Below the pieces are notes generated by a model that was not told where the DNA came from, ran no database searches, and saw only the letters and a program-made list of their open reading frames with translations. The translations under genes were made by a program, and so were the position numbers. 44,077 bases of DNA, taken from positions 1 through 44,077 of IMG/VR virus record IMGVR_UViG_3300027851_000050; one strand, 5' to 3'. This stretch comes from a virus. Positions 2,736-44,077 of the stretch are shown here, one piece after another; within the stretch, counting starts at the first letter, position 1, and each line of letters begins with the position of its first letter.

Positions 2736-2926
2736 TTTTTCCCCCGTCTCAGGTCTTCCAGTGTCGGCAACGCCACCTTCTTTCCCTGGCCCCGGCGCGG
2801 CAGCAGGGCTGCGAGTGCATCACGCTGAAGCATCTGCCGTTTGATGCTGCTTTCGAGGTCGTAGATTGCTCGCTCGATACCGGAGATGAGCCGGGCGAGG
2901 TCTGGGCTGCTGTCTGGACTGATCAT
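2732..2926 (-). CDS. Hypothetical small helical protein
   Basis: A 64-aa protein, probably two helices: a first amphipathic helix (LARLISGIERAIYDLESSIK) and a basic C-terminus (RRGQGKKVALP, ending RRGKK). Both ends overlap neighbours by ATGA, joining the Rha-type regulator gene upstream to the small membrane protein downstream. I recognise no family. The basic tail could bind nucleic acid, but this is only a possibility. Confidence 0.6.
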   Translation of the reverse strand: MISPDSSPDLARLISGIERAIYDLESSIKRQMLQRDALAALLPRRGQGKKVALPTLEDLRRGKK

Positions 2927-3672
2927 GGCCGGGCCTCGATAGCAGTTGAGGCCATCGGCAGCATCGCTGCCGGAGATATCACCGGAGTGATACCGACGCT
3001 TGCCGCGTAGGATTCGAGCCTTACCTTCGCCAGTTGAAAAACATCTTTGTAGTAGAGGCCATTGGCCATGCCATCACGGATGACATCGGTGATAATATCT
3101 TCGGCTACTGATAGTTTGCGAAGTTGGCGAGCATTTAGCAGGTCGCGGAATGAAACCTTGAAGTGATCTTCGATGATGAACAGCGCCCGGTAGGTTGCCG
3201 TTGTGAAGTGCTTGTAATAGAAGTTGGCCTTTGTCGATCCCTGGCCCTTTGCGTATTCGACGAAATCAGATACCGCGTCCGTCTCTTCGCGGCGTGACAG
3301 TTTTCCTGTCTTTCGCTCATCCAACCAACGCGGTTCTGATCGGGATAGAAGGGCCTTTTCCATTTTGGTGAAAGCGGCCTCGTACCTGATTTTCCATTCG
3401 AGGGCCTTTTTCCCGGTGAAACCCATAGCCAAGATAGAAAATCCGGCGCGTGTCATGTAGAACATCGGACGCTTTTGGTTCTGTTCGTCGAGGTATGACC
3501 CGCCCGCAAAATTGCGGAGACCAAAATCTCCAGATTCGGCAATCAGCTTTCGCGTTCTCTTCAACACATCGTCGTGCCGCTTGCCGAATTTCTCGGCGAC
3601 ATCCAACGAGGCCGTGAAAACCTGTCCGTGCTTTTCCTTCAGGTAAATTTCCGGGACATAGTTCTTCGTCAT
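2923..3672 (-). CDS. Rha-family phage regulatory protein
   Basis: A 249-aa protein. The N-terminal 100 or so residues match the phage regulatory protein Rha pattern: residues such as VFTASLDVAEKFGKRHDDVL, then FYMTRAGFSILAMGFTGKKA. This DNA-binding module is common in phage antirepressor-type proteins. The C-terminal half (about 120-249) is a separate helical domain (SDFVEYAKGQGSTKANFYYK, later DIITDVIRDGMANGLYYKD) that I do not place firmly. I start at ATG 3672, which overlaps the TGA of the Cro-like gene (ATGA) and has GGGGGAAG upstream. It is the second gene of the left operon, so an early regulatory role is likely. Confidence 0.75.
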   Translation of the reverse strand: MTKNYVPEIYLKEKHGQVFTASLDVAEKFGKRHDDVLKRTRKLIAESGDFGLRNFAGGSYLDEQNQKRPMFYMTRAGFSILAMGFTGKKALEWKIRYEAAFTKMEKALLSRSEPRWLDERKTGKLSRREETDAVSDFVEYAKGQGSTKANFYYKHFTTATYRALFIIEDHFKVSFRDLLNARQLRKLSVAEDIITDVIRDGMANGLYYKDVFQLAKVRLESYAASVGITPVISPAAMLPMASTAIEARP

Positions 3673-3857
3673 GATTTCTTCCCCCTTTTCGGAAACGCGG
3701 CCCCCCATGCCGCTTTTCGCTCCATGACCCTTGAAGGATCAATCCAGATGATCGGGTCCGTTCCCGTCTTCTTCCCGACGATCTTCGCCTTCTCAAAACT
3801 CAGGTTACGCTCTCCCCTGAGTAAATAGTGAATCATAGTTGGTGATATCAGTTGCAT
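3669..3857 (-). CDS. Cro/YdaS-like HTH repressor
   Basis: A 62-aa protein with one small helix-turn-helix: ISPTMIHYLLRGERNLSFEK reads like the turn and recognition helix of Cro/YdaS regulators, followed by the typical GTDPIIWIDPSRV tail. It is the first gene of the left operon and lies directly downstream of a good minus-strand promoter with an inverted pair of 11-mers between promoter and start. That is the classic arrangement of an autoregulated Cro-like repressor. The start at 3857 has no clear Shine-Dalgarno sequence. Its natural partner would be the XRE protein of the rightward operon at 5323-5529. Confidence 0.7.
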   Translation of the reverse strand: MQLISPTMIHYLLRGERNLSFEKAKIVGKKTGTDPIIWIDPSRVMERKAAWGAAFPKRGKKS

Positions 3858-3973: not shown

Positions 3974-4200
3974 CAACTATTTTTAACTTTTCGTGAATAG
4001 ATAATTAAAAAAGGTTGCGTTGTGTTCACAAAAAGTGATAGAGTTAGAGTAATAGACAAATAAATATCTAATATGGTTAAATAAAATATGGCAAACAAAA
4101 CTTTCGGAAGGGATTTTAGAATAGCGAGAGAAAAAAGAAAGCAAAAATAATATCTTGCGCCGTATAAAATAACCTTACCGCCGTCATCCGATTTATCCAT
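3970..4200 (-). CDS. Doubtful ORF in AT-rich control region
   Basis: A 76-aa frame rich in Phe, Leu, Ile and Tyr with two or three hydrophobic stretches (YFCFLFSLAI; KVLFAIFYLTILDIYLSI). There is no Shine-Dalgarno sequence before its ATG, and its composition follows the AT-rich DNA rather than typical coding bias. Its 3' end touches the -35 element of the leftward promoter. It could be a small membrane protein, but I think it more likely to be a chance frame in the regulatory region. Confidence 0.15.
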   Translation of the reverse strand: MDKSDDGGKVILYGARYYFCFLFSLAILKSLPKVLFAIFYLTILDIYLSITLTLSLFVNTTQPFLIIYSRKVKNSC

Positions 4201-4237
4201 AACGTGTTTAAATAATTCGTATTTTTATATCGTTATT

Positions 4238-4254
4238 TGGTAACAGTGTTACCA
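4238..4254. promoter_or_regulatory. 17-bp perfect palindrome, operator candidate
   Basis: TGGTAAC-AGT-GTTACCA is a perfect 7+3+7 dyad in an AT-rich stretch, ending 31 bp before the -35 element of the rightward promoter. This is the layout of a regulator-binding site. It differs in sequence from the palindrome inside the promoter spacer, so two different proteins may act here. Confidence 0.5.
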
Positions 4255-4285
4255 GAAGAAAAAAATAAAAAGTGCATTTTTTCCC

Positions 4286-4314
4286 TTGCAATATACCCCA
4301 ATGGGGTATATAAA
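4286..4314 (+). promoter_or_regulatory. Rightward promoter with palindromic spacer
   Basis: TTGCAA (4286-4291), exactly 17 bp, then TATAAA (4309-4314) make a strong sigma70-like promoter for the 4473-5529 operon. A 21-bp palindrome, ATATACCCCA-A-TGGGGTATAT (4291-4311), fills the spacer and overlaps both elements, so any dimer bound there would block polymerase or, as with MerR-type regulators, distort the spacer. The predicted transcript starts near 4321 and has a leader of about 150 nt. Confidence 0.65.
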
Positions 4315-4406
4315 TAAAGAAAGAGGAAGGGAGATTGACCCGGAGAGAGGCCGGAAGCAAAGGCGGAAGTTAACCGAGAAGCCGAAGGGGGATTAACATT
4401 CCATCT

Positions 4407-4460
4407 GATTGTCTGGAAGTTCAACGCTTACACTGATGAGGCCATAAGGCCGAAACAATC
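4407..4460 (+). ncRNA. Type III hammerhead ribozyme
   Basis: All conserved core positions of a hammerhead are present in order. Stem III 5' strand GATTGT (4407-4412) pairs perfectly with ACAATC (4455-4460). C17 is 4413, with cleavage expected between 4413 and 4414. Stem I is TGGAAG (4414-4419) with CTTACA (4427-4432), five of six pairs plus one G-A mismatch, closed by the loop TTCAACG. CTGATGA is 4433-4439. Stem II is GGCC-ATAA-GGCC (4440-4451), and GAA 4452-4454. The open helix is stem III, so it is type III. It lies in the leader of the rightward operon. Stem III ends at 4460, one base before the AGGGGG Shine-Dalgarno stretch (4462-4467) of the first gene, and the ATG is at 4473. Cleavage would leave a 59-nt, 5'-hydroxyl leader. 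Confidence 0.88.
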
Positions 4461-4472
4461 AAGGGGGACGAT

Positions 4473-4826
4473 ATGGAAAAGAAATTTAAAAAAGGACAAA
4501 AAGTATATTACGCCTCAACAAATATCGGCAGAATATGTCGTAATGGCGAACCTGATATATTTCTTTGCATGGTTGTCGAGAGGACAGTAGACGCGTGTGG
4601 CAAGGTTCAAATGACATTTGAAGATGACGGAAACGACTTTGTTTTTGGACGTTCGGTAAGGATCGAATATTCTGATGCATATTTTTCTTCACCGGATGAA
4701 GCATTCGATTATTTACAACAACTCAGTCAAGCATACACACGTTGTAAACACGAAATCCACCCGTCTGTCGTGTCCGACAAAAATAAAGATTGGCATGAAA
4801 TTTCTCGGCAATGGAGCAGAAGATAA
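4473..4826 (+). CDS. Hypothetical protein, first gene behind the ribozyme
   Basis: A 117-aa protein of unknown family. The N-terminus (MEKKFKKGQKVYYAS) and the following strands (DIFLCMVVERTVDACGKVQM, then TFEDDGNDFVF) suggest a small beta-barrel of the kind seen in chaperone- or RNA-binding-like phage proteins. A helical segment (SPDEAFDYLQQLSQAY) and a hydrophilic tail follow. The ribosome-binding site AAGGGGGACGAT directly abuts the hammerhead stem III, so its translation may depend on ribozyme folding or cleavage. Confidence 0.7.
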   Translation: MEKKFKKGQKVYYASTNIGRICRNGEPDIFLCMVVERTVDACGKVQMTFEDDGNDFVFGRSVRIEYSDAYFSSPDEAFDYLQQLSQAYTRCKHEIHPSVVSDKNKDWHEISRQWSRR

Positions 4827-4874
4827 CCCCCAAATGGAAACAGGGCAATCAAGCCCACGAAACGGAGGATGACC

Positions 4875-5108
4875 ATGTTAATAGAATACAAGCCAACCGG
4901 GATAAACAATTTTCATAACAGCCAGTCAATTTCCTTAAGAATAACTGGAGAAGAGTTCGAAGGGATGTATGTCGTGTCGAAAGGTCAATATCGCAAGATT
5001 TACAAACATTTCTGCGGCATTAAGGACTGCAGGTGCGCCGGTGGAGCGTGCGTACAATTGGACCCCGACGGCAACACCTGGGGTATTCGCAAGGCATATT
5101 GCAGTTGA
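4875..5108 (+). CDS. Hypothetical cysteine-rich small protein
   Basis: A 77-aa protein with two beta-like strands and then a cysteine cluster, CGIKDCRCAGGAC, which could bind a metal or form a knuckle. I start at ATG 4875 because GGAGG lies six bases before it, while the earlier in-frame ATG at 4869 touches the GGAGG. It is the second gene of the rightward operon. No family recognised. Confidence 0.65.
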   Translation: MLIEYKPTGINNFHNSQSISLRITGEEFEGMYVVSKGQYRKIYKHFCGIKDCRCAGGACVQLDPDGNTWGIRKAYCS

Positions 5109-5152
5109 CAACCCCAACCGAGCCGGGCGGATACCCGGCGATGGAGGATAAA

Positions 5153-5326
5153 ATGAAGAAATACTATGAGAACCATGTCTCCCCAAGGGGAATGATGCTC
5201 TTGTATAACTCTCATGATTCCCTTGGGCGTGAAATCTGGTGGATTACAACTCCGGGAACGCAAAAGAAGCGGAGAGTATCAAAAGAAACGGCGTGCGAGA
5301 TGATAAAAAAAGGGGATTGGATATGA
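5153..5326 (+). CDS. Hypothetical small protein
   Basis: A 57-aa protein starting at ATG 5153 behind GGAGGATAAA. It has a short beta-rich core (GMMLLYNSH, REIWWITTPG) and ends in a helix with Lys and Glu. Its TGA overlaps the ATG of the XRE regulator (ATGA), so the two are translationally coupled. A longer frame exists upstream but lacks a start site. The leader before it holds a small GC-rich hairpin (GCCGGG and CCCGGC, 5116-5133). Confidence 0.55.
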   Translation: MKKYYENHVSPRGMMLLYNSHDSLGREIWWITTPGTQKKRRVSKETACEMIKKGDWI

Positions 5327-5529
5327 CCCCCTCCGAATTAAAGCAAATCCGCGCCACCCTGCGCCTATCCCAGCAGGGTATGGCAGACCGCCTCGGGGTG
5401 AGCCTCGGGGCGGTGCGGAAATGGGAACAGGGGGAGAGATGGATCAGCCAGCCTATTGCCATGCTGATGAGGATGATTGAAAAAGAGGCCCGCTGTGGTG
5501 CGCGTGCCGATGAATCGACAGAGGCGTAG
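5323..5529 (+). CDS. XRE-family HTH regulator
   Basis: A 68-aa protein made of a single Cro/CI-type helix-turn-helix: LKQIRATLRLSQQGMADRLG, then VSLGAVRKWEQGER as turn and recognition helix. The SQ..MA..LGVS...V.KWEQG pattern is diagnostic for XRE proteins. It has no dimerisation or cleavage domain, so it is more like Cro or a YiaG-type regulator than a lambda CI repressor. It ends the rightward operon and lies convergent to the endolysin gene 10 bp away. A natural guess is that it regulates the divergent promoters at 3944-4314. Confidence 0.8.
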   Translation: MTPSELKQIRATLRLSQQGMADRLGVSLGAVRKWEQGERWISQPIAMLMRMIEKEARCGARADESTEA

Positions 5530-5539
5530 CGGGCAACGA

Positions 5540-6016
5540 TCAGGCGATGAATCCACCGGCCTGCAAGAAAACTCTTCGCAGGTCGGCGAGGCGTTTCTCG
5601 GGCTGTCCGTACCCGGCGCCGGGGAGCGAGGCCCACCTCGACCGGCATTTGTGCACAGCGACGTAAAAGCGGCCGTTGGAGATATCACTGATAGCACGGC
5701 ACTCCCTGATGAGCTGGATAGCAATTGCGTCCTGCGATTCCGGGGAGAAATCCGGCAGGGCGAGCGTGCGCTTGTAGTGGTCGAAATAGCGGGCGAGGAT
5801 CTGATACCGGCCGGCCGCTGTTGAGTGCAGTATCCGGCCGCCGAGCCTGACAATCATCGACCGGCGCGGGTGGTCGGCGTAGGAAAAGAACAACAACGGA
5901 CGGGCTGGGGTGCTGCCCACGATGACATTAAATCCGTCGTCGGATTTGGCCAGCAGGTCAGGCCCAATCTCAGCCCACGCGATGGTGTCGAGGAATGCGC
6001 TGATTTGATAATTCAT
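5540..6016 (-). CDS. R: Lambda gpR-type endolysin (lytic transglycosylase)
   Basis: A 158-aa murein-degrading lysis enzyme of the lambda gpR family. Family landmarks are visible: FLDTIAWAE with the catalytic Glu at about residue 16, GFNVIVGS, SYADHPR, STAAGRYQILARYFDHYK, DFSPESQDAIAIQLI and WASLPGAGYGQPEKR. There is no signal peptide, so it would need a holin for release, as in lambda. I start at ATG 6016, which overlaps the TGA of the upstream secreted protein (ATGA), instead of the in-frame ATG at 6031. It is the last gene of the long late operon and implies a Gram-negative host. Confidence 0.93.
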   Translation of the reverse strand: MNYQISAFLDTIAWAEIGPDLLAKSDDGFNVIVGSTPARPLLFFSYADHPRRSMIVRLGGRILHSTAAGRYQILARYFDHYKRTLALPDFSPESQDAIAIQLIRECRAISDISNGRFYVAVHKCRSRWASLPGAGYGQPEKRLADLRRVFLQAGGFIA

Positions 6017-6342
6017 CGCCTGAACGCCCACGGAGCCAGCAGCTTCCCATTCTGATCAAAAGCATACGGTGCACTGTACGGGCGTTCCGTGCCATCGGCA
6101 AAGGTGGCGGGCAAGGTGTAGATGGTAACTTCCTTAACCAACTTCACCTCGCAATCCATCTCTTGCAGCGCAGGCCCGGAGCCGTAGCACACCGGCACTC
6201 CCTCTTGGTACAGCCTGTAGCCAGTGACTGCTGGGGACATCGGTGGAGTGTAGCCCCAGGTTACGTGGATGCTGGTTGCCATTGCCACCGATGTCCATAG
6301 CAGCAGGATGCTAATTGCGCTTAAAATTGCCGGGAGTCGCAT
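6013..6342 (-). CDS. Secreted fibronectin type III-like protein
   Basis: A 109-aa protein with a clear Sec signal peptide (MRLPAILSAISILLLWTSVA, cleavage near AMA) followed by one small beta-sandwich module: IHVTWGYTPP, then VTGYRLYQEGVP and a final YSAPYAF segment, the strand pattern of fibronectin type III repeats. Two cysteines may form a disulfide in the periplasm. It is paralogous to the interrupted gene just upstream (both have W-x-YT, then ITG/VTG, F/Y, I/L-YQ). Why a phage exports single Fn3 modules next to its endolysin is unknown; binding to the envelope is one possibility. Confidence 0.75.
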   Translation of the reverse strand: MRLPAILSAISILLLWTSVAMATSIHVTWGYTPPMSPAVTGYRLYQEGVPVCYGSGPALQEMDCEVKLVKEVTIYTLPATFADGTERPYSAPYAFDQNGKLLAPWAFRR

Positions 6343-37957: not shown

Positions 37958-38776
37958 CTATTTTTTTTTGGCCATAATTGCCGGTCTCGCCCACTGCCGC
38001 TGCCACTTGGCCCATTGCCTATCTCTCTTTCCTTCTGCATCTCGATACAGCATAGCCATAGGCATAAATCCAGCGTCCACGGCTTCATGCATCCTCTTGC
38101 CCGCAGCATCGAAAGTGTCACCATAGTACCCACAGAGGACGTAGGCCCTGAGGCAGTGACTTGTCGTGGTGAATCCGGCGTCAAGCAGCATCTGGCCGGC
38201 AACCCGCAACGGCTCAAGATCGTCAGGCGTGTCGTAGGCGAAAAACATCTGCTTCGGCCTTAGCTTTCGCAGTTCTTCGACATGCCAGTCTTGCAGTCGA
38301 GCGGCCTCAAGCCCCCCGGTAAACTCAATCCGATGGCCGTTGGATTTCTGGCTTGCGAGCATGGCGAAGACCGACTTTTGATGAGCCTCGGAGCACGCCA
38401 GCAGATTATCGTCGAGTACATTCCACCCCTCGGTGATCGGCAGCTCTCTGACCTCTGCCCCTTCTCGCCGCCACACCTGACAAAACCAGCAACGATTGGG
38501 ACAACCCCTTGAAGTGAGTACGTAACCGTTTTTCACATATCGCCCTGGCACAAAATCACCACCCGGTTCATTCATGGCCGGTCCGCCGATCCGCACAGGG
38601 GCGACGTGTTTCCACATCACCGCCAGTCTCTCTGCTATCGGGATATCCCAAGTGAATGCCACAGATATATGAATCTCGTCGGCCTCGTCGAACATTGATG
38701 GCTGGCAGTTTATCCTGGCCATAACGTCGTCAGGCGTCGCGGTCGTCCGACGGGGGAAAACCCTGATTATCCGCAT
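37958..38776 (-). CDS. Radical SAM enzyme of a phage-associated family
   Basis: A 272-aa radical SAM protein. GCPNRCWFC (Cys92, 96, 99) is the CxxxCxxC site for the 4Fe-4S cluster that splits S-adenosylmethionine. It is followed by DDNLLACSEAHQKSVFAML, IEFTGGLEAARLQ, FFAYDTPDDLEPL, YVLCGYYGDTFDAAGKRM and a closing PMAMLYRD block. I recall this arrangement in other phage genomes, but the substrate is not known to me. Between the RecT and MazG genes, it may act on nucleotides, RNA or a peptide. Confidence 0.85.
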   Translation of the reverse strand: MRIIRVFPRRTTATPDDVMARINCQPSMFDEADEIHISVAFTWDIPIAERLAVMWKHVAPVRIGGPAMNEPGGDFVPGRYVKNGYVLTSRGCPNRCWFCQVWRREGAEVRELPITEGWNVLDDNLLACSEAHQKSVFAMLASQKSNGHRIEFTGGLEAARLQDWHVEELRKLRPKQMFFAYDTPDDLEPLRVAGQMLLDAGFTTTSHCLRAYVLCGYYGDTFDAAGKRMHEAVDAGFMPMAMLYRDAEGKRDRQWAKWQRQWARPAIMAKKK

Positions 38777-42693: not shown

Positions 42694-43099
42694 CTCGTTC
42701 CTCGCCCTGCCGCGTTCCTCGCCTCGCCAAGCCGTGCCTCGCCCTGCCGTGCCATGCCACGCCGCGTTCCTTGCCTTGCCGTGCCTTGCCTCGCCGTGCC
42801 ACGTTCCTTGCCCAGCCCCGCCATGCCAAGCCTGGCCTTGCCTTGCCTTGCCTCGCCGTGCCACGTTCCTTGCCTCGCCCGGCCCTGCCGAGCCCTGCCT
42901 TGCCGTGCCGCGCCGAGCCCCGCCTCGCCATGCCTCGCCGTGCCTCGTTCCTCGCCCTGCCGCGTTCCTCGCCTCGCCAAGCCGTGGCTCGCCTCGCCAA
43001 GCCGTGGCTCGCCTCGTTCCCTGCCATGCCCTGCCACGCCCCGCCTTGCCACGCCTCGCCATGCCTCGCCGTGCCGAGCCTTGCCGAGCCCCGCCGCGT
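42694..43099. repeat. Punctuated GCC pentamer array between two early genes
   Basis: About 400 bp of NNGCC pentamers with punctuating 7-mers GCGTTCC, ACGTTCC or TCGTTCC. Counts of pentamers between punctuations are 2, 9, 6, 11, 15, 2 and 9, then a last run of about 15. A 44-bp piece (42694-42737) recurs exactly at 42943-42986, and a 20-bp piece (units TCGCC-TCGCC-AAGCC-GTGGC) is duplicated in tandem. It replaces any gene between 42625 and 43099; the open frames across it are effects of composition. Confidence 0.88.
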
Positions 43100-43835: not shown

Positions 43836-44077
43836 TTCTTGTTCCTTGTTCCTAGCCTTGCCCTGCCTAGCCTTGCCGAGCCTTGCCCCGCCGAGCCGCG
43901 TTCCTTGCCTTGCCTTGCCCCGCCGAGCCGAGCCTTGCCTTGCCACGCCCCGCCCCGCCGAGCCGCGTTCCTTGCCTTGCCTTGCCCCGCCGAGCCGAGC
44001 CTTGCCTTGCCACGCCCCGCCATGCCGAGCCGCGTTCCTTGCCTTGCCTTGCCTTGCCTTGCCCAGCCGTGCCCAGC
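43836..44077. repeat. Punctuated GCC pentamer array, right end
   Basis: NNGCC pentamers with 7-mers (TTGTTCC twice at the edge, then GCGTTCC). It holds a tandem 67-bp repeat: 43876-43954 equals bases 1-79, while 43952-44077 equals bases 10-135. Thus the window end equals its start with one more copy of the 67-bp unit. Including the left end, the whole array on the circle is about 320-390 bp. Confidence 0.88.

Follow-up and report, generated by a model that had tools for sequence, protein, structure and literature searches.

The 44,077-base IMG/VR virus record, which we analysed over its whole length and refer to as the window, carries a type III hammerhead ribozyme directly upstream of a small rightward operon (Table 1). 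By every sequence test available to us this is a real hammerhead in a phage leader, and it is probable that the ribozyme is functional and sets the 5' end of the operon mRNA.

The hammerhead and its surroundings

The ribozyme reads GAUUGUC-UGGAAGUUCAACGCUUACA-CUGAUGA-GGCCAUAAGGCC-GAA-ACAAUC, and the invariant core of a type III hammerhead is complete, with C17, CUGAUGA, GAA and the A15.1-U16.1 pair (A4455 with U4412) all present. Three stems meet in the junction that type III requires: loops close stems I and II, and stem III is left open. On re-reading the sequence we find the position and the invariant core residues given in the initial annotation to be correct, and the 6-bp stem III (which gains a seventh pair, U4406-A4461) and the 4-bp GGCC/GGCC stem II with its ATAA loop are confirmed. 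The stem I it described is accurate as regards the 7-nt loop, UUCAACG, but not as a clean helix, for a G4416-A4430 mismatch had been overlooked: the pairs run U-A, G-C, the mismatch in third place, A-U, A-U and G-C, so that five of the six form. Cleavage may perhaps be slower on account of this mismatch. The first residue of loop I is U, as in 53 of 57 phage relatives among the matches listed, and the last residue of loop II is A, as in 50 of these 57.

Table 1. Features of the leader and operon in the window
Feature	Position	Strand	Basis
Candidate promoter, TTGCAA - 17 nt - TATAAA	4286-4314	+	read from sequence; 4/6 and 5/6 to consensus
21-bp perfect palindrome ATATACCCCAATGGGGTATAT in promoter spacer, candidate operator	4291-4311	.	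single copy in window; 0 expected in shuffles
Inferred leader piece lost on cleavage, 93 nt	4321-4413	+	if transcription starts at ~4321, from promoter position
Type III hammerhead ribozyme, predicted cleavage between C4413 and U4414	4407-4460	+	RF00008 43.1 bits; phage model R1 53.6 bits, E 1.8e-13
Stem III 5' strand, GAUUGU	4407-4412	+	read from sequence
C17	4413	+	read from sequence
Stem I, UGGAAG-UUCAACG-CUUACA, with G4416-A4430 mismatch	4414-4432	+	sequence and covariance models
Core CUGAUGA	4433-4439	+	sequence and R1
Stem II, GGCC-AUAA-GGCC	4440-4451	+	sequence, fold and R1
GAA	4452-4454	+	read from sequence
Stem III 3' strand, ACAAUC	4455-4460	+	read from sequence
Shine-Dalgarno AAGGGGG, 5 nt before ATG 4473	4461-4467	+	read from sequence
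First operon gene, 117 aa, no known family	4473-4826	+	no match in PHROGs, Pfam, PADLOC, NCBIfam
Second gene, 79 aa, cysteine-rich, no known family	4869-5108	+	no match in PHROGs, Pfam, PADLOC, NCBIfam
Third gene, 57 aa, no known family	5153-5326	+	no match in PHROGs, Pfam, PADLOC, NCBIfam
Fourth gene, 67-aa XRE-type HTH	5326-5529	+	PF01381, E 3.1e-8

A scan of the window with Rfam at gathering scores returns no match. When 501 nt are searched with all 4227 families at an E-value threshold, RF00008, the type III model, aligns over its full length with 4406-4461 (E 3.5e-8), its 43.1 bits falling short of the curated gathering score of 48.5 bits, which is a database cut-off and not a property of the ribozyme. 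An Infernal search with this model had been proposed as a check on the initial annotation, with the lack of a covariance-model hit counting against it; the match is there by E-value although below the gathering score, and a negative result at that score is misleading because the cut-off excludes the class. A pattern specifying only the core, with free loops and no demand on the stems, finds at least 119 IMG/VR contigs, and a phage model, R1, was made by aligning 57 distinct sites with paired stems among the matches listed, leaving the window out. Against the 44-kb window R1 gives a sole match, the hammerhead, and the next best local score with filters off is 6.2 bits, which together with the E-value of 1.8e-13 rules out a chance match. 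Covariation in alignment A1 is strong but partly circular, and we give it no weight because the sites were selected with paired stems. The exact 26-nt 3' half of the ribozyme is absent elsewhere in IMG/VR.

The window has a tailed-phage gene set on the minus strand, including terminase, portal, capsid, helicases, RecT and exonuclease VIII, and the four-gene operon (4473-5529) runs rightward, set between two leftward genes, one lysozyme-like (5540-6031) and the other encoding a Rha regulator (2923-3708). It had been called the only rightward operon, and it is the only clear one, the other recognisable genes being on the minus strand. Its designation as regulatory applies to a single XRE gene but finds nothing to sustain it in the other three proteins, which match no family in the four collections searched (Table 1). 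The XRE protein is similar to the HTH portion of antitoxins of the MqsA family, with a match to TIGR03830 (E 5.7e-10) that stays below the cut-off, and a defence or anti-defence identity for the operon was considered and set aside, the search having returned HTH matches only. Gene 4473 has no relatives in phages, IMG/VR or genome contigs; for gene 4473, gene 4869 and the Rha gene there are no usable relatives in IMG/VR, and for the locus none in phages, plasmids or genome contigs. One candidate relative, L121, proved to match by chance, over a short part of a protein that looks unrelated. The nearest terminases are those of Pseudomonas and enterobacterial phages, at ~58% identity.

Several other features of the record may be mentioned here. 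G+C hairpins stand directly before the strong Shine-Dalgarno sequences of the second and third genes (GGGC-AATCAA-GCCC in 4827-4868 and GCCGGG-CGGATA-CCCGGC in 5109-5152), and a search ahead of these two genes with the hammerhead model, filters off, finds no hammerhead. A minus-strand gene at 1450-2568, in which a 15-bp repeat occurs ~40 times, encodes a pentapeptide-repeat protein whose N-terminal domain is DUF7666, and another at 37958-38776, adjoining the RecT gene, encodes a radical-SAM-like protein. G+C-rich repeat arrays of the CCTTG/CCGAG type occupy 1-151, 42713-43085 and 43851-44077, that is, both ends and a region near 43 kb. Bases 10-135 are identical to the last 126 bases, and the genome may therefore be complete in this record, either circular or circularly permuted, with its closure inside a repeat array.

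Upstream of the hammerhead no rightward gene was found in 4001-4472. The promoter at 4286-4314, described initially as strong, is plausible as a promoter, but its strength is not borne out, a consensus promoter scan making no call there; the palindrome lying over it is real, 21 bp long, perfect and unique in the window. The Shine-Dalgarno sequence follows stem III directly on its 3' side, and 59 nt would remain between the predicted cut and the ATG. This is the placement of a leader hammerhead, a sense-strand element ending within a few tens of nucleotides of a Shine-Dalgarno sequence and ATG, and its assignment to the leader of gene 4473 is well supported.

Phage hammerheads ahead of ribosome-binding sites

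The position of the element is shared by many phage hammerheads. An ATG-started ORF lies no more than 100 nt downstream in 97 of 108 distinct sites among the matches listed, the window included, with a median distance of 22 nt (16 nt from CGAAAC to ATG in the window), and 73 of these 108 have a Shine-Dalgarno-like stretch as well; ORFs were counted if they had at least 40 aa, or fewer where the end of the contig cuts them. Read in the opposite direction, the same 108 sites yield 23 with an ORF and 4 with a Shine-Dalgarno stretch, and the figures for random positions are 39% and 11% respectively. As intergenic gaps in phages are short, and hammerheads within operons lie ~30 nt from the upstream stop as well, nearness to a start codon cannot by itself separate a leader role from cutting between genes; the placement in the window does separate the two, because there is no co-directional gene upstream.

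A cassette consisting of a near-identical hammerhead and the Shine-Dalgarno stretch GAGGAGGC is present in 13 contigs among the matches listed, preceding nine unrelated protein families, and since one cassette precedes nine different families this speaks for a leader module that is independent of the downstream gene. Related viral contigs with near-identical hammerhead-Shine-Dalgarno cassettes before unrelated genes include L030, L048, L068, L071, L076, L096, L099 and L117. Among the downstream products that could be recognised are ATPases, an anti-restriction protein, PAPS reductase and regulators, the majority of products being without recognised identity. A cultured example is Pelagibacter phage HTVC031P, with a hammerhead at 290-342 and gp02 starting at 364. 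Across 257 billion bases from bacterial and archaeal genomes, only 17 stretches fit a somewhat stricter form of the pattern. Several hammerheads or hammerhead-model matches per contig are seen in L010, L045, L050, L058, L116, L120, L132 and L135. Type III hammerheads also occur in candidate-phyla-radiation genomes (L124, L126, L132, L135, L137 and L138), perhaps with a different role, since a Shine-Dalgarno sequence and ATG mostly do not follow closely.

At the Rfam gathering score the hammerhead is found in none of the 14 other loci with phage hammerheads that were scanned, so the cut-off conceals the class, which is largely unannotated, and the numbers in annotated genomes are probably underestimates. 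What hammerheads do in phage genomes is a question that the field has yet to settle (PMC6155905), and their strong and repeated placement directly before ribosome-binding sites, including that in a cultured Pelagibacter phage, makes it approachable by experiment. We see the main interest of the present element in this class, which is large, is concealed by the Rfam cut-off and lends itself to tests in cultured phages.

A proposed mechanism and its alternatives

We propose that transcription would begin from the palindrome-overlapped promoter near 4314, and that the RNA would fold as it is made and then cleave itself constitutively after C4413, at 4413/4414, releasing ~93 nt with a 2',3'-cyclic phosphate. 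The mRNA would then start with a 5'-OH at U4414 and be capped by the structure of stems I and II, with the Shine-Dalgarno sequence carried in the stretch 4452-4472 behind stem II, which is the hairpin nearest the ribosome-binding site once the cleavage product is considered. The outcome would be a fixed and insulated mRNA, probably longer-lived or better translated, as with RiboJ. RNase E of E. coli cuts 5'-hydroxylated RNA poorly where it is 5'-end-dependent (PMC4191395), and, by unpublished data that PMC4191395 quotes, E. coli seemingly has no kinase that acts on the 5' ends left by hammerheads. Control would be exerted through the promoter and palindrome, the cleavage itself being expected to be constitutive because the element has no sign of a ligand or protein switch: 4200-4700 holds no Rfam riboswitch or glmS match even at E 10, and the ligand-dependent aptamer fold of a regulated ribozyme of the glmS type is lacking.

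The initial suggestion that the ribozyme sets mRNA stability or frees the ribosome-binding site survives in part. A role in setting the 5' end is plausible by analogy with HF1/HF2 and RiboJ, but folding gives no support to an unmasking of the Shine-Dalgarno sequence by cleavage, the mean unpaired probability of this sequence being 0.43 when the precursor is free, 0.41 when it is folded as the hammerhead and 0.33 after cleavage. Stronger claims, of regulation by the ribozyme or of a switch, find no support.

The opposite effect, in which the 5'-OH would be an entry point for decay and lower expression, has its model in glmS, whose 5'-OH product is degraded by RNase J1 in Bacillus (PMC3997798), and in hosts with RNase J such an end could indeed speed decay and so reverse the effect proposed above. 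We nevertheless think this unlikely here, as glmS is gated by a metabolite whereas the element in the window has no added aptamer, and as RiboJ, at the same position, increases expression (PMC6206723). The nearest terminases, at ~58% identity, moreover hint at a host with RNase E. A similarly low probability attaches to a role in dividing polycistronic or read-through transcripts into individual mRNAs, which has been proposed for clustered prophage hammerheads (PMC3088659) and would suit the many phage hammerheads among the matches listed that lie between co-directional genes with gaps of ~30 nt. The window, however, has one hammerhead copy only, a promoter-like site ~100 nt before the cut, and a leftward upstream neighbour with no rightward gene in between.

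It might also be supposed that the element is a relic with little or no activity, prevented from cutting in cells by its mismatched stem I and by misfolding of the leader. In isolation it folds into the hammerhead at -11.2 kcal/mol, but with the full leader the minimum-energy fold is not the hammerhead, which is 2-3 kcal/mol worse than the best alternative and makes up a minority (0.6-4%) of the equilibrium ensemble, in energy models that leave out the loop-loop contact and the order of co-transcriptional folding. On one fixed construct, however, the folding cost is 3.2 kcal/mol for the window, where 57 phage hammerheads among the matches listed have a median of 2.8, and so is ordinary for such elements; shuffled leaders have a mean cost of 5.5 kcal/mol, with 11% as low as the native one. 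Decay would be expected to strike the core too, yet the core residues are intact throughout, as are both stem II and stem III, the U of loop I and the A of loop II, and we regard a relic as improbable.

Returning to a functional ribozyme that sets the mRNA 5' end, we offer tentatively, as a possibility of less than even weight, a wider interpretation in which phage hammerhead and Shine-Dalgarno sequence together form a portable leader cassette, a natural counterpart of RiboJ swapped among unrelated genes to give a standard 5'-OH, hairpin-capped mRNA, and largely unannotated owing to the Rfam cut-off. Here the cassette would be coupled to a palindrome-controlled promoter, and output would be set by promoter occupancy and not by leader sequence.

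Relation to known ribozymes

The initial annotation considered that a hammerhead between a palindrome-controlled promoter and a regulator operon would be new, but the arrangement is not, as many phage hammerheads directly precede a Shine-Dalgarno sequence and ATG and the HF1/HF2 haloviruses provide a precedent (PMC3088659); with these and the prophage hammerheads already described, the leader hammerhead here is a further example of a known device. In HF1/HF2, 13 nt separate HHphage from the downstream start codon of a helicase, the first gene of an early operon, and the transcript 5' end maps within 3 nt of the cleavage site (PMC3088659). HHphage is likewise a hammerhead in a virus leader close to a start codon, although HF1 and HF2 are archaeal viruses, and their hammerhead has a variant core with insertions and serves a helicase operon. 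Hammerheads adjoining ardA and other genes are known from prophages of Agrobacterium, Legionella and Azorhizobium, and some of them cleave in vitro and in E. coli (PMC3088659). Of the 18 consensus-fitting hammerheads assayed in that study, no activity was seen in 4 (PMC3088659). The prophage hammerheads too are phage-borne and directly upstream of accessory genes, but there are often several per locus, of types I to III and inside long transcripts, whereas the window has one copy behind a promoter-like site. The glmS ribozyme shares with the present element, as proposed here, self-cleavage in a bacterial 5' leader to yield a 5'-OH mRNA, and differs in having another fold, in being metabolite-activated and in causing decay. 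RiboJ is an engineered insulator that cleaves by means of the sTRSV type III hammerhead, and in E. coli it raises protein 2-10 fold and mRNA about twofold (PMC6206723). As in the window, a type III hammerhead stands between promoter and ribosome-binding site. The cut in RiboJ removes leader sequence that comes from the promoter, so that the mRNA begins with a hairpin, and the predicted cut in the window would do likewise; RiboJ has an extra 23-nt hairpin, whereas the element in the window has stems I and II only.
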